DNA from: Candidatus Dormiibacterota bacterium
GTDB taxonomy: Bacteria; Vulcanimicrobiota; Vulcanimicrobiia; Vulcanimicrobiales; Vulcanimicrobiaceae
Assembly: GCA_035532035.1 (NCBI GenBank)
Contig: DATKRS010000016.1
Location: 1 to 60,488, forward strand
Length of the DNA stretch: 60,488 nucleotides
Direction: 5' to 3'
Under the pieces are notes generated by a model. The model made no database searches. It was not told where the DNA came from and saw only the letters and a list, made by a program, of their open reading frames with translations. Every line of letters starts with the position of its first letter. Within the stretch, counting starts at the first letter, position 1. Both the position numbers and the translations under genes were made by a program. Positions 6,498 to 35,658 of this stretch are shown in pieces.

Positions 6498-6554
6498 GTC
6501 GAGTATGGGGCTCGACGATTAAGCGCCCGTTAGTGACGATTAAGCGCCCGTTAG
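6498..6554 (-). promoter_or_regulatory. Phased direct repeats and inverted repeat upstream of the TonB receptor
   Basis: Two identical 20-bp copies of GACGATTAAGCGCCCGTTAG (6514-6533 and 6535-6554) are spaced 21 bp apart, two helical turns. Directly on the gene side is an inverted repeat GTCGAG-7-CTCGAC (6498-6516), sharing three bases with the first copy. The block lies 33-90 bp before the GTG start, where an activator or repressor would act. The regulator is not identifiable; metal or nutrient control is usual for receptors of this type. Confidence 0.5.
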
Positions 6555-19719: not shown

Positions 19720-20151
19720 TCAGGGAAGCACCGTCTGCGTGATCGGCGCGTCAGCCGGCGTCACAACTTCGACGCGGATGCCGCGCCGGTAGACCGTGTT
19801 GGGAACGATCCAGAGCGTGAACGTACGATACGGCGCCGTCGGCTCGCCTCCGTTCGCGGGCGCCTCCTCGAAGGCAACGACGCGAACGCGCGTTTCGTTG
19901 GCCCCGATGGATTCGACGATCTGGCGATAGCCCGTCCGATCGTGCGGTCCCATCAAGAGTACGACGCCGAACTCACCGCGAAAGCGTACGGGCTCATGGA
20001 TGCCCAGGCGCGCCAGCGAATCGCTGTCGCGGACGATCGCGATCTGGTTTGCGCCCAAGACCGTGGTCGTCCCGACCGCGTACGTTTTGACGCGGACCTC
20101 GCGACAGCCCATGAGGAGGAGGAGGGTGAATAAAGCCCACCAGCGTTTCAC
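19720..20151 (-). CDS. Hypothetical lipoprotein
   Basis: A 143-residue protein starting at GTG 20151 with KRWWALFTLLLLMGC, a lipoprotein signal ending in a Cys lipobox. The mature domain is strand-rich (RFRGEFGVVLLMG, TRVRVVAFEEAP, RTFTLWIVPNTVY) with no family I can name. It is the first gene of the coupled operon leading to GH130, RF3 and the dehydratase. The frame stays open far upstream, to 20844, only because the tandem repeats lack stops; the lipobox fixes the true start. Confidence 0.68.
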   Translation of the reverse strand: MKRWWALFTLLLLMGCREVRVKTYAVGTTTVLGANQIAIVRDSDSLARLGIHEPVRFRGEFGVVLLMGPHDRTGYRQIVESIGANETRVRVVAFEEAPANGGEPTAPYRTFTLWIVPNTVYRRGIRVEVVTPADAPITQTVLP

Positions 20152-20170
20152 GTCCCGCCCGCCTTCGTTT

Positions 20171-20473
20171 GAAACGGCGGCGCACCTTGCGCGCCGCCAG
20201 GCACTTCGCTCCTCGTCCGGCGCTTCGCGCCGCACACTCCGCTGCGCGCCCCCACCAAAGCGTTGCGATGGGACCCCGTTCTGAAACGGCGGCGAACCTT
20301 GCGCGCCGCCAGGCACTTCGCTCCTCGTCCGGCGCTTCGCGCCGCACACTCCGCTGCGCGCCCCCACCAAAGCGTTGCGATGGGACCCCGTTCTGAAACG
20401 GCGGCGCACCTTGCGCGCCGCCAGGCACTTCGCTCCTCGTCCGGCGCTTCGCGCCGCACACTCCGCTGCGCGC
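20171..20473. repeat. 112-bp tandem repeat array, 2.7 copies
   Basis: Copies run 20171-20282, 20283-20394 and 20395-20473 (first 79 bp only). Copies 1 and 2 differ at a single base (C at 20183, A at 20295); copy 3 matches copy 1 over its length. Each copy can fold a hairpin with an 8-bp stem GGCGGCGC/GCGCCGCC (broken by one pair in copy 2) and a second, CGGCGC-TTC-GCGCCG. The unit is not a multiple of three, so it is not a peptide repeat. The array fills most of the 393-bp gap between the divergent lipoprotein and ctaA starts. A 72-bp core recurs at 33958-34029. Confidence 0.92.
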
Positions 20474-20506
20474 AGCCAGGCACGCTTGGTGAGGCGACCA
20501 CGGTCG

Positions 20507-20544: not shown

Positions 20545-21459
20545 GTGAAGAGTCTGAGGCGCCTCGCGCTCGCGGCAGATCTCGTTGCGTTTGCGGTCGT
20601 CATACTGGGAAGCTGGACGCGGATCAACGCGGCCGGAATGACCTGCCCCGATTGGCCGATGTGCCGGGGCGAGCTCTTCCCAAACATGTCCGGCGGCACG
20701 CTCTGGGAATGGACCCATCGCCTCCTCGCCTTCTCGCTGGCACCGCTGATCGCAGCCGTCTGCGTCGTCGCTTGGCGATCGCGAGTACGTTCCTCTCCCG
20801 CAGCCGTTGCGAGCGGCGTCGTTGCCGCACTCTTCCTCATTCAAGTTGCGCTCGGAGCTGCGACGGTGCGCCTCGACAACACGCCGCTCTCGGTCGTCCT
20901 ACACTGGGGAACGGCGATGGCCGTTATCGCGGCACTGACCGCCGTCGCAATCTTTGCCCATCTGCCCGAACCGGGAGCTGCGCGCGGTACTCCACCCTCC
21001 CCGCGCATCGTTCTGGTAATGCTCGGCATCACGGCGGTCGTCGCCTTCATTACGATGTGCATCGGGGCGTACGTCAGCTCCAGTGGAGCGGGCCTCGCCT
21101 GCCTCTCGCTCCCGGGATGTGCGGGGAACGTCGTCGTATATACCCCCGGCCAGGTCGTCCAGATGCTGCATCGCGTCGCAGCGGCGGCAACGCTTCTCTG
21201 CGCGAGTATCGCGTTTGCGTTGACATGGACGAGAGGGGTCGCCTCGTACGTGCGGCTGGCCGCAGGCGCGGGAATACTGCTCGTTTTCATCCAGGTGATC
21301 TTGGGACTGCTCAACGTCGCTCTCCGGCTTCCGACCGATCTTCGCGAAGTGCACGCCGCAAACGCTGCGTTGCTCTTTCTTGCCTTCGTGGCCGCAACCG
21401 CTTTCGCCGCAATCGATTCTTACGCACCTTCCCTGCCTGCGTACGAGAGGCCGCATTGA
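20545..21459 (+). CDS. ctaA: Heme A synthase (COX15/CtaA)
   Basis: A 304-residue, eight-helix membrane enzyme that oxidises the methyl group of heme O to give heme A for the aa3 oxidase. The N-terminus has GSWTRINAAGMTCPDWPMC, and heme-ligand histidines stand in WEWTHRLLA, VLHWGTAM, QMLHRVAAA and EVHAANAALL, as expected from the internal two-fold repeat. A Cys pair is present in the second half (AGLACLSLPGC). GTG 20545 is the start. It is coupled to ctaB through a TTGA overlap. The oxidase genes it serves lie 5 kb away on the opposite strand. Confidence 0.92.
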   Translation: MKSLRRLALAADLVAFAVVILGSWTRINAAGMTCPDWPMCRGELFPNMSGGTLWEWTHRLLAFSLAPLIAAVCVVAWRSRVRSSPAAVASGVVAALFLIQVALGAATVRLDNTPLSVVLHWGTAMAVIAALTAVAIFAHLPEPGAARGTPPSPRIVLVMLGITAVVAFITMCIGAYVSSSGAGLACLSLPGCAGNVVVYTPGQVVQMLHRVAAAATLLCASIAFALTWTRGVASYVRLAAGAGILLVFIQVILGLLNVALRLPTDLREVHAANAALLFLAFVAATAFAAIDSYAPSLPAYERPH

Positions 21460-33184: not shown

Positions 33185-33901
33185 ATGATCACGTTTTCCA
33201 GGTCGGCGCAATACTACGACGCGCTCCTCACGGCCGCGGGAAAGGACTACGCGCGCGAGAGCGCCGTGATCTGCGAGCTCGTCGAGCGCTACAAGCGCTC
33301 TGCGGGACGCAGGCTCCTCGACGTGGCGTGCGGGACGGGGCGTCATCTGGAGTCTCTGCGGGAGCGCTTCGAGTGCGAAGGGCTGGACATCGACCGCGGC
33401 ATGCTCGCGTTGGCCGCGGAGCGTTCCCCGGACGTATCGTTCCATCTCGCCGACATGATCGGCTTCAATCTCGGCACGCGCTTCGACGTCATCGTCTGCC
33501 TCTTCGGATCGATCGCCTACCTGCCCACGATGCAACGCTTCGAACAAGCGATTGCGAACTTCGCGCGTCATCTCACGCCGGGAGGGATCGCCATCGTCGA
33601 ACCGTGGCTGCGGCCGGACGAGTGGGAGGACGGGCACGTCAGCGCTCGCTTTGCCGATCTTCCCGATATGAAGATCGCGCGCATGCACGTCGCGCGCCGC
33701 GACGATTTCGTCGCAATCCTCAACTTTCATTACATGGTGGGCCACAGAGACGGAATTCGCAGCTTCGAGGAGACGCACCGTCTTCTCTTGCTGAGCGACG
33801 AGCAGTACCGGGCGGCGTTCCTACGCGCGGGCTTCGAGCTGCACCACGGTACGCAGGTACTCGCCGGCAGAGATTTGTTCGTGGGCGTCCACTCGGCCTG
33901 A
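33185..33901 (+). CDS. SAM-dependent methyltransferase (class I)
   Basis: A 238-residue methyltransferase. SAM-binding motif I is LLDVACGTGRHLESL near 45-60; CEGLDIDRGMLALA contains the acidic residue for the ribose, and FDVIVCLFGSIAYL is motif IV. LTPGGIAIVEPW is the post-motif strand. This matches small Methyltransf_25-type enzymes acting on small molecules, but the acceptor is unknown. ATG 33185 is the only start before motif I, with GCGAAAG upstream. The following 176 bp hold a dispersed repeat. Confidence 0.82.
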   Translation: MITFSRSAQYYDALLTAAGKDYARESAVICELVERYKRSAGRRLLDVACGTGRHLESLRERFECEGLDIDRGMLALAAERSPDVSFHLADMIGFNLGTRFDVIVCLFGSIAYLPTMQRFEQAIANFARHLTPGGIAIVEPWLRPDEWEDGHVSARFADLPDMKIARMHVARRDDFVAILNFHYMVGHRDGIRSFEETHRLLLLSDEQYRAAFLRAGFELHHGTQVLAGRDLFVGVHSA

Positions 33902-33932
33902 GATCCATCGCCGGACCGAAGTCCTATCTCTG

Positions 33933-34034
33933 GCGCAACGTGCGAGGCCAATTCAGCGGGGCGCGCAGCGCAGTTGAGGTGGCGAAGCGGCCGAAGCGCA
34001 GCGTAGCGCCAGGCCGAGCGCAACGTGCGAGGCC
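33933..34034. repeat. Dispersed repeat element related to the 112-bp array
   Basis: GCGCAACGTGCGAGGCC occurs exactly at 33933-33949 and 34018-34034, 85 bp apart. Positions 33958-34029 align without gaps to the reverse complement of 20181-20252 at 54 of 72 positions by hand count, starting with the shared GGGGCGCGCAGCG. The element fills most of the gap between the methyltransferase and the permease. It is non-coding as far as I can see. Confidence 0.8.
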
Positions 34035-34077
34035 CTTTTACAGAGGGAATCGGCCGCCGGAGGCATAGCCTGGCGGT

Positions 34078-35658
34078 ATGTCGTCACTCTACCTCGGGAT
34101 TCTGTACGGTCTCGTCGCCGTTGGCTTCGTATTCATCGTCCTCTTCATCATGCGCGGACGCGTGAAACCGCTGGAGCGGATCTTAGCCGAAGGCAGCGAC
34201 TCGGAACACGGCCTCAAGCGTTCGCTCGGGCCCTGGGCCCTGACCGCGATGGGGATCGGCGCGATCATCGGCACCGGCATCTTCGTTCTCACGGGCGTAG
34301 CCTCGGCCACGCGGGCCGGTCCGTCGATCACGTTCTCGTTCGTCGTGGCCGGCGTCGTCAGCGCGCTCGCGGCACTCTGCTACGCCGAGGTCTCCAGCAA
34401 GATTCCGATCTCGGGCAGCGCGTACACCTACACGTACGCGACGCTCGGTGAGTTTCTCGCGTGGATCATCGGTTGGGATCTCGTACTCGAATATGCGCTC
34501 GGCGCGGCCACGGTCAGTATTGGGTGGTCGGGCTACTTCGCGAACATCATGCACCAGTGGGGAATCCCGATTTCGCCGCTGTGGGCGAACGGCCCACATT
34601 GGGGGCTTGCGGGTCAGGCCGGCGTTTCCGGATATGCGAATCTTCCCGCGGCGGCAATCATCCTCGTCATCACCGCGCTGCTCGCGAAGGGCACGCGCGA
34701 ATCCGGCACGGTGAACGCCATCATCGTGGCGGTCAAAGTGGCCATCGTGCTCTTCTTCATCGTGATCGGAGTCGGGCACATCAACCCCGCGAACTATCAT
34801 CTGCCACCCGGTGGGCTAGCAGGCATGGGGGGGTATTTCCCGTTCGGCTGGACTGGGATGCTCGGCGGCGCGGCATTCATCTTCTTCGCGTACATCGGAT
34901 TCGACGCCGTTTCGACGACCGCCGAGGAGGCGAAGAATCCCGGCAAAGACCTGCCCTTCGGCATCATCGTGAGCCTCGCGATTTGCACGATTCTCTATAT
35001 CATCGTCGTCGCGATCCTCAACGGTATGGTGCCGTTCTATAAACTCAACGTCGCCTTCCCGGTCGCCTTTGCGATGAACTACGTCGGCCTCGGCTGGGCG
35101 GGCGTCATCATCTCGCTCGGGGCGATCGCCGGTCTCACGACGGTATTGCTCGTCATGATGTTCGGTCAGAGTCGAATTTTTTACGCGATGTCCCGCGACG
35201 GTTTGATTCCGCCATCGTTCACGCGCATTCATCCAACATGGCGCACACCGATCTTCTCGACGGTTTTCTTCGGCATCTGCATCGCGGCGATCGCAGCCTT
35301 CACCCCAATCAACATCGTGGGTTCGCTCACGAACATGGGCACGCTCTCCGCGTTCATCCTCGTTTCGCTCGCGGTCCCGGTTCTGCGCAGGCGACACCCC
35401 GATCTGAAGGGCGCGTTCACGCTCCCGTTCGGGCCCTATCTGATCCCGGTTCTTTCCGCGGTGACTGCGCTCGGCCTGATCTATTACCTCAAGGTCGGTA
35501 ACCCGGTAGCGTGGGGATTCTTCCCAATCGTCTGGTTGTGGTTCCTCATCTGGCTTATCGCAGGGCTTCTCTTCTACTTTGTGTACGGCCGGCACAAGAG
35601 CACGGTCGCACTCTCCGAAGCGCAAGGGCTCGCAGTCCGGCAACCGCCCGTAAACTAG
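34078..35658 (+). CDS. APC-family amino acid permease (CAT-like)
   Basis: A 526-residue transporter of the amino acid-polyamine-organocation superfamily. After an extra N-terminal helix (about 5-25) comes the family signature GIGAIIGTGIFVLTGVA (TM1 unwound region), then the TM6 segment FIFFAYIGFDAVSTTAEEAKNP, characteristic of cationic amino acid transporters. It probably imports amino acids by proton symport. It meets hydantoinase A tail to tail, two bases apart, with both stop codons inside the palindrome CTAGTACTAG. Confidence 0.87.
   Translation: MSSLYLGILYGLVAVGFVFIVLFIMRGRVKPLERILAEGSDSEHGLKRSLGPWALTAMGIGAIIGTGIFVLTGVASATRAGPSITFSFVVAGVVSALAALCYAEVSSKIPISGSAYTYTYATLGEFLAWIIGWDLVLEYALGAATVSIGWSGYFANIMHQWGIPISPLWANGPHWGLAGQAGVSGYANLPAAAIILVITALLAKGTRESGTVNAIIVAVKVAIVLFFIVIGVGHINPANYHLPPGGLAGMGGYFPFGWTGMLGGAAFIFFAYIGFDAVSTTAEEAKNPGKDLPFGIIVSLAICTILYIIVVAILNGMVPFYKLNVAFPVAFAMNYVGLGWAGVIISLGAIAGLTTVLLVMMFGQSRIFYAMSRDGLIPPSFTRIHPTWRTPIFSTVFFGICIAAIAAFTPINIVGSLTNMGTLSAFILVSLAVPVLRRRHPDLKGAFTLPFGPYLIPVLSAVTALGLIYYLKVGNPVAWGFFPIVWLWFLIWLIAGLLFYFVYGRHKSTVALSEAQGLAVRQPPVN

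Follow-up and report, generated by a model that had tools for sequence, protein, structure and literature searches.

What are the two similar intergenic sequences in the 60,488-nucleotide stretch analyzed here (the window, contig C16 of a 2.25 Mb genome in 38 contigs)? The first-pass annotation had reported 54 identities in 72 ungapped positions between 33958-34029 on the forward strand and the reverse complement of 20181-20252. We reproduced this count exactly, together with the shared GGGGCGCGCAGCG and GTGCG at the two ends of the match and the location of both copies in intergenic gaps in opposite orientation. Once a tandem array is excluded, this is the top match in the window, and the next unrelated 72-mers share about 38 identities. 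Similarity arising by chance among GC-rich, hairpin-forming spacers would be the simplest account, and the high G+C content and repeated AGCG words do lift the background: 100 dinucleotide-preserving shuffles of the whole window gave a mean of 39.8 and a maximum of 46 identities. This maximum is well short of 54, however, and covariance-model E-values down to 5e-17, the best across the family described below, as well as covariation in the stems, also speak against chance, which is already refuted by these three lines of evidence and retains a negligible probability.

The copy at 20181 proved to belong to a tandem array of three units that repeat every 112 bp (20166-20473). The copy at 33958 is matched by the family model at 33944-34036 (74.7 bits, E 3.9e-9) and keeps H2, H3 and the tail, while H1, the first hairpin of the family, is lost. 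A direct repeat of 17 bp, GCGCAACGTGCGAGGCC, stands on the 5' side of this copy at 33933-33949 and occurs again at 34018-34034. From the sequence, we take the first occurrence to be the 3' arm left by a tandem copy that once stood upstream; in the relative G003, one element ends in the same H3 arm and is followed by AATTC. The predicted minimum-energy fold of the 33958 copy in isolation differs from the family fold and pairs with this upstream remnant, and the copy is therefore probably a degraded member. The ATG of the permease gene lies 41 nt past the modeled end of H3. The array obeys the placement rule of the family described below, with the GTG of the downstream gene 22 nt past the end of the last copy; the product of this gene has no match in Pfam. 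Elsewhere in the window, positions 6514-6554 hold a perfect 21-bp tandem duplication, GACGATTAAGCGCCCGTTAGT.

Table 1 Coordinates of the repeat copies, their parts and the neighboring genes in the window.
Feature	Position	Strand	Basis
Second family copy (H2, linker, most of H3)	33958..34029	+	54/72 to reverse complement of 20181-20252
Hairpin H2 with GGCGC/GCGCC foot and internal loops of GNA/GNA and GA/GA type	33960..34010	+	Family structure
Hairpin H3, GGCCGAGCGCAACGTGCGAGGCC, with tandem G.A mismatches in the stem (putative recurrent allele)	34012..34034	+	Predicted fold
A/T-rich tail CTTTTAC, counterpart of the family TTTAAAA tail	34035..34041	+	Tail consensus of sense and antisense copies
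Putative remnant of lost upstream tandem copy (H3 3' arm)	33933..33949	+	Direct repeat of 34018-34034
Tandem copy closest to the downstream gene, complete H1-H2-H3	20174..20276	-	Model E 2.2e-12; fold
Tandem copy 2, full H1-H2-H3	20286..20388	-	Model E 4.4e-12
Tandem copy 3, intact in H2 and H3, diverged in the H1 region	20398..20499	-	Model E 5.0e-9
Amino acid permease, downstream of the 33958 copy	34078..35658	+	Pfam PF13520, 1.1e-52
SAM-dependent methyltransferase, upstream of the 33958 copy	33185..33901	+	Pfam PF13649; open frame from 32969
Small lipoprotein-like protein, downstream of the array	19723..20151	-	Gene call
CtaA/Cox15-like heme A synthase, divergent neighbor on the H1 side of the array	20545..21459	+	Pfam PF02628, 5.8e-37

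The first-pass annotation proposed scanning the genome and its relatives with profiles built from the two copies, and both nucleotide and covariance models recovered more copies. Nucleotide searches of the genome found them on contigs C11, C32 (two in tandem) and C29. A first covariance model, built from six copies, matched ten places in the genome, the last at E 0.15 (about 10 copies), and also matched four genomes of the same genus (G002, G003, G005 and G007) and other genera. The element-bearing contigs that carry a taxonomic name belong to Candidatus Eremiobacterota. A second covariance model found at least 85 copies. They are spread over 33 of the 99 genomes searched in one Eremiobacterota family, with at least 1 to 12 copies detected per genome; these counts are lower bounds, as a limited number of first-look candidates was scored in each genome. 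The other 50 genomes of the 149-genome phylum sample contained no copies by this model, and three gammaproteobacterial matches to the sequence pattern were unsupported by the covariance model. Carriage by phages or plasmids was rejected, as none of the viral contigs searched with the element pattern carried it and a comparison with plasmids and phages gave no match. In the window, Rfam gave no match at the gathering score, the sub-threshold matches lying outside the elements. Our literature search found no paper describing this three-hairpin repeat family. We conclude that it is a previously undescribed family of mobile sequences of about 120 bp, confined to one family of uncultured bacteria in the Eremiobacterota.

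The intact copies share one predicted fold, in which a three-hairpin unit of about 105 nt is followed by a TTTAAAA tail. H1 has 9 bp, and H3 has 10 bp and a three-base loop. The long H2 begins with a GGCGC/GCGCC foot and continues as short helices split by internal loops. The 5' boundary has the consensus G^GGGNCC (caret marking the boundary), and the tail also follows antisense copies, which indicates that it is part of the element. Across the 85 copies, 94.0% of cells at paired positions can pair, 29 of 35 pairs change on both sides, and 464 both-side-change cells were observed against 118 expected. All five covariation measures exceeded every shuffle (0/500) and all slid controls (at most 0.07, compared with 0.46 for the real alignment), in an alignment that was fitted to the model and so favors the structure. 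The initial MAFFT alignment of six copies also gave more covariation than its control (0.274 against 0.152, 0/500 shuffles). On the sense strand there were 115 G.U cells and 15 A.C cells, an excess that points to the sense strand as the one that folds. A median of 95% of the predicted pairing of an element is internal. The proposal of a structured RNA is supported by a shared, covarying fold.

Some features of the fold vary little among copies. In the outer internal loop of H2, GNA lies opposite GNA in nearly all copies, and the flanking positions are G.A in 51 of 54. Loops of the GNA/GNA type are associated with sheared G.A pairs in both RNA and DNA. At the apex of H3, 81 of 85 copies retain a G.U wobble beside the closing pair (alignment A5, columns 193/200), which suggests that this apex may be recognized. 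In the H3 stem, tandem G.A mismatches replace two pairs in about one third of copies, including that at 33958 (alignment A4, columns 127-128/141-142); judged from the alignment, they are a recurrent allele and not random decay.

To place the copies relative to genes, we called genes with a codon-usage gene finder made for this analysis. Between co-directional genes, 35 copies were sense and 9 antisense (p 1e-4). Manual inspection shifted two convergent cases, at ftsH and rimP, to sense, giving 37 sense, 9 antisense, 21 divergent and 4 convergent copies; these counts take in orthologous sites, and a hand count per independent locus gives about 27 sense to 6 antisense. Most copies thus lie, by sequence, in the sense 5' leader position. 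In divergent gaps, the H3 side was the one closer to a start codon in 20 of 21 cases (p 2e-5), and the median distance from H3 to the start codon was 18 nt. Convergent placement was rare (about 4 of 71, compared with 10 of 50 gene pairs in the window; p 0.02). About six independent antisense and three to four convergent copies remain, some with high model scores, and no tRNA or other RNA gene is adjacent to any of them. Their existence indicates that the leader position is not obligatory and that function at every site is unlikely. The possibility that the element opens the ribosome-binding site by folding was rejected: predicted accessibility did not differ from that with no element (p 0.24) or with a shuffled element (p 0.29), and differed from that with an antisense element (p 0.016).

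The downstream genes were named by NCBIfam and Pfam, with some recognized from their N-termini. They include tuf (four genomes), rpoD (four genera), rimP (three genera), infC, ftsH, lpdA and rnj, as well as rpsA, rpsE, rpmC, gyrA, atpD, adk, gatB, holA, obg, smc, pckA, an acyl-CoA dehydrogenase gene and others. Their functions include translation, transcription, replication and ATP synthesis, and unrelated targets (the permease, FAH, PaaA and FHA) also occur, so that the set is rich in housekeeping functions and does not form one pathway. Housekeeping genes appear to be targeted often, an enrichment that is our judgement and not a ratio to a background rate. By rough estimate, uniform insertion would hardly have hit rpoD in four genera and rimP in three. 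At two infC loci (L132 and L140), the first-codon region after the element is ATAGCTCGACCG, which suggests that these infC genes, like others, begin with a non-standard start codon.

Comparison of individual sites indicates gain by insertion. At rpoD of G099, the element is cleanly inserted after the TAA that ends the preceding gene and before AAAGGAGG, with shared flank letters of at most AAAT. Five congeners, whose flanks are up to 95% identical, run straight from the TAA into AAAGGAGG or its equivalent. At tuf in another genus, 14 congeners carry a full element (4), a truncated element (1) or none (9), and the element lies between a conserved TTGACA...TAGTAT promoter/leader and the Shine-Dalgarno sequence. 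In the genus of the window, both window sites are shared with G003 and absent from the other congeners. Presence is patchy even among close relatives. Copies often have their closest relative at a different gene within the same genome (27 of 85), and those that share a gene across genera show no greater similarity (0.517) than those at different genes (0.55). Judged from these comparisons, the family is mobile, and the dispersed, undescribed repeat family proposed by the first-pass annotation has members both in this genome and in its relatives, with a match score above that of shuffled sequence.

Several observations concern the sites themselves. The gap before a gene for an HNH-domain protein (L107, L103 and L126) holds a sense element in G054 and antisense elements in G053 and G049. 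Ahead of the G054 copy lies TTTTAATAAGCTC, which matches the 3' end of that copy in inverted form. The 176-aa product of the HNH gene has its best partial NCBIfam match in the HNH region of IscB. The gap orthologous to 33902-34077 of the window is filled by a different element in G005 (L077) and G002 (L079), which in G002 has the ends CCAATAGTGCTCGTCTA...TAGACGAGTACTATTGG and whose interior lies in opposite orientation in the two genomes. Its sequence suggests a second repeat family that is invertible or was inserted twice, and similar sequence also flanks the C11 copy. In G001 (L075), the same gap holds a TGTCATCCCGAGCGTAGCG...CGAAATGACA palindrome, which presumably resembles the GTCATCC-GAGCG repeats common in many MAGs. 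This gap seems to be an insertion hot spot.

The suggestion that the family is REP-like or MITE-like is not supported in the strict sense of either term. The element ends, GGGGNCC and TTTAAAA as read from the alignment, are not inverted copies of each other, and no terminal inverted repeats are visible. Matches of 6-9 bp that could be target-site duplications show a slight excess over shuffled pairs, part of which is explained by tandem remnants, leaving no clear excess beyond them. A REP/REPIN-type palindrome moved by a RAYT (Y1) transposase would likewise be palindromic, intergenic, dispersed and foldable. However, a search for the REP-associated transposase (PF01797) found none in the genome of the window or in 24 of the 25 same-family genomes tested, with fragments in G007. 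The family also has three hairpins over about 105 nt and few copies in place of a high-copy palindrome of 20-40 bp, lacks a GTAG/CGTC-type tag and lies upstream of start codons instead of downstream of genes. Membership among REPs is unsupported because the tested element-bearing genomes are without RAYT-type transposases (fragments in one) or reverse transcriptases, and we regard it as very improbable. A link to reverse transcriptases, as in a group II intron or retroelement derivative, was rejected, since PF00078 is absent from all element-bearing genomes among 31 tested; Rfam gave no group II intron match in the window.

We consider it most probable (roughly 0.64) that the family is a lineage-restricted, non-autonomous mobile element of about 120 bp that works as a 5'-leader RNA module. 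The covarying fold, folding on the sense strand, dispersal, gain by insertion, placement before start codons and orientation bias, all read from sequence, point to this explanation. The sense strand, as RNA, would form three successive hairpins (H1, the long H2 and H3) followed by the A/T-rich tail. Copies would insert or survive mostly in sense orientation, downstream of a promoter or a preceding gene and ahead of the Shine-Dalgarno sequence, and would thereby become part of the mRNA 5' leader, often at housekeeping genes. We infer transcription within the leader, for which the conserved promoter upstream at tuf argues, together with any effect on expression and a factor that moves the element. 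The action would most likely be post-transcriptional, the structured block by the ribosome-binding site altering mRNA stability or processing, by analogy with ERIC and NEMIS (PMC2229807). Alternatively, the block could insulate translation initiation from upstream sequence. The number of copies per site changes through tandem duplication and partial deletion.

The serious rival, which we regard as appreciably less probable, is a purely parasitic small interspersed repeat of the BOX, RUP or CIR kind, moved in trans by a transposase. The hairpins would then serve mobilization as single-stranded DNA, and the start-proximal sense pattern would reflect nothing more than damage to the host by other insertions, or a preference of the mover for A-rich, Shine-Dalgarno-like DNA. 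Clean insertion, patchy distribution, tandem remnants, the two orientations at the HNH-gene gap and intact antisense copies all agree with such a parasite, and one-strand folding fits single-stranded DNA transposition equally well. Known parasitic repeats, in contrast, favor convergent gaps (PMC3049150) or the downstream sides of genes (PMC3733652), the opposite of what is seen here, and a parasite does not readily explain why rpoD and rimP are hit again in different genera. Less probable again is a cis-regulatory RNA class, such as a regulon-type leader whose binding partner is a small ligand or a ribosomal or growth-linked protein, spread by ordinary selection and gene conversion and not as a mobile parasite. 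Sense 5'-leader placement, the housekeeping gene set, strong covariation and the recurrence of rpoD, rimP, infC, ftsH and lpdA in separate genera would be expected of it, but same-gene copies in different genera are no closer, the distribution is patchy even in close relatives, some targets are unrelated, and beyond the GNA loops and the H3 apex there is no conserved unpaired core resembling an aptamer. A speculative extension, which we hold to be similarly doubtful, is that the element constitutes a mobile RNA regulon, gained many times over within one bacterial family by genes for translation, transcription, replication and energy, in which a single trans factor or growth signal would read the fold through the GNA loops and the conserved G.U next to the H3 apex, and so coordinate mRNA stability or translation.

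Among described repeats, the family resembles the small structured interspersed repeats CIR, BOX and ERIC, and the tests run here do not place it among REP/RAYT systems or classical MITEs. The CIR repeats of Caulobacter, compared by their description, are similarly about 110 bp long, intergenic, composed of hairpin arms joined by a linker and only partly MITE-like, with a mobility mechanism that is unknown; they differ in being alphaproteobacterial and in having two arms and a GANTC methylation motif exposed in a loop (PMC2229807), whereas copies of the present family have three hairpins and the TTTAAAA tail and are placed in sense ahead of start codons. In Streptococcus pneumoniae, BOX elements are also structured, vary in the number of tandem modules and are co-transcribed with genes, but are enriched between convergent genes and show no bias in gene function (PMC3049150), whereas few copies here are convergent and many lie in 5' leaders of housekeeping genes. 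ERIC/IRU and NEMIS/Correia elements are mobile repeats of 105-155 bp that enter mRNAs, where RNA-level effects through RNase E or RNase III processing, orientation-dependent for ERIC, have been reported (PMC2229807); they fold by end-to-end pairing of terminal inverted repeats, unlike the separate hairpins in series found here. REP/REPIN sequences with RAYT are dispersed intergenic palindromes that may also act as RNA hairpins (PMC3733652, PMC2817692), and differ from the present family in the features given above. Published accounts of BOX, RUP and SPRITE (PMC3049150) and of REPs (PMC3733652) describe the reverse of the placement seen here. Our literature search found no paper on the Eremiobacterota phylum that also mentions riboswitches.

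Small interspersed repeats are usually viewed as parasites tolerated at the sites where they are least harmful. The three-hairpin family does the opposite: it is mobile and retains a covarying RNA fold, and its copies lie mostly in sense orientation beside the ribosome-binding sites of housekeeping genes. The tuf and rpoD leaders with and without the element would offer natural, lineage-wide pairs in which to test whether mobile DNA has seeded regulation at the RNA level.
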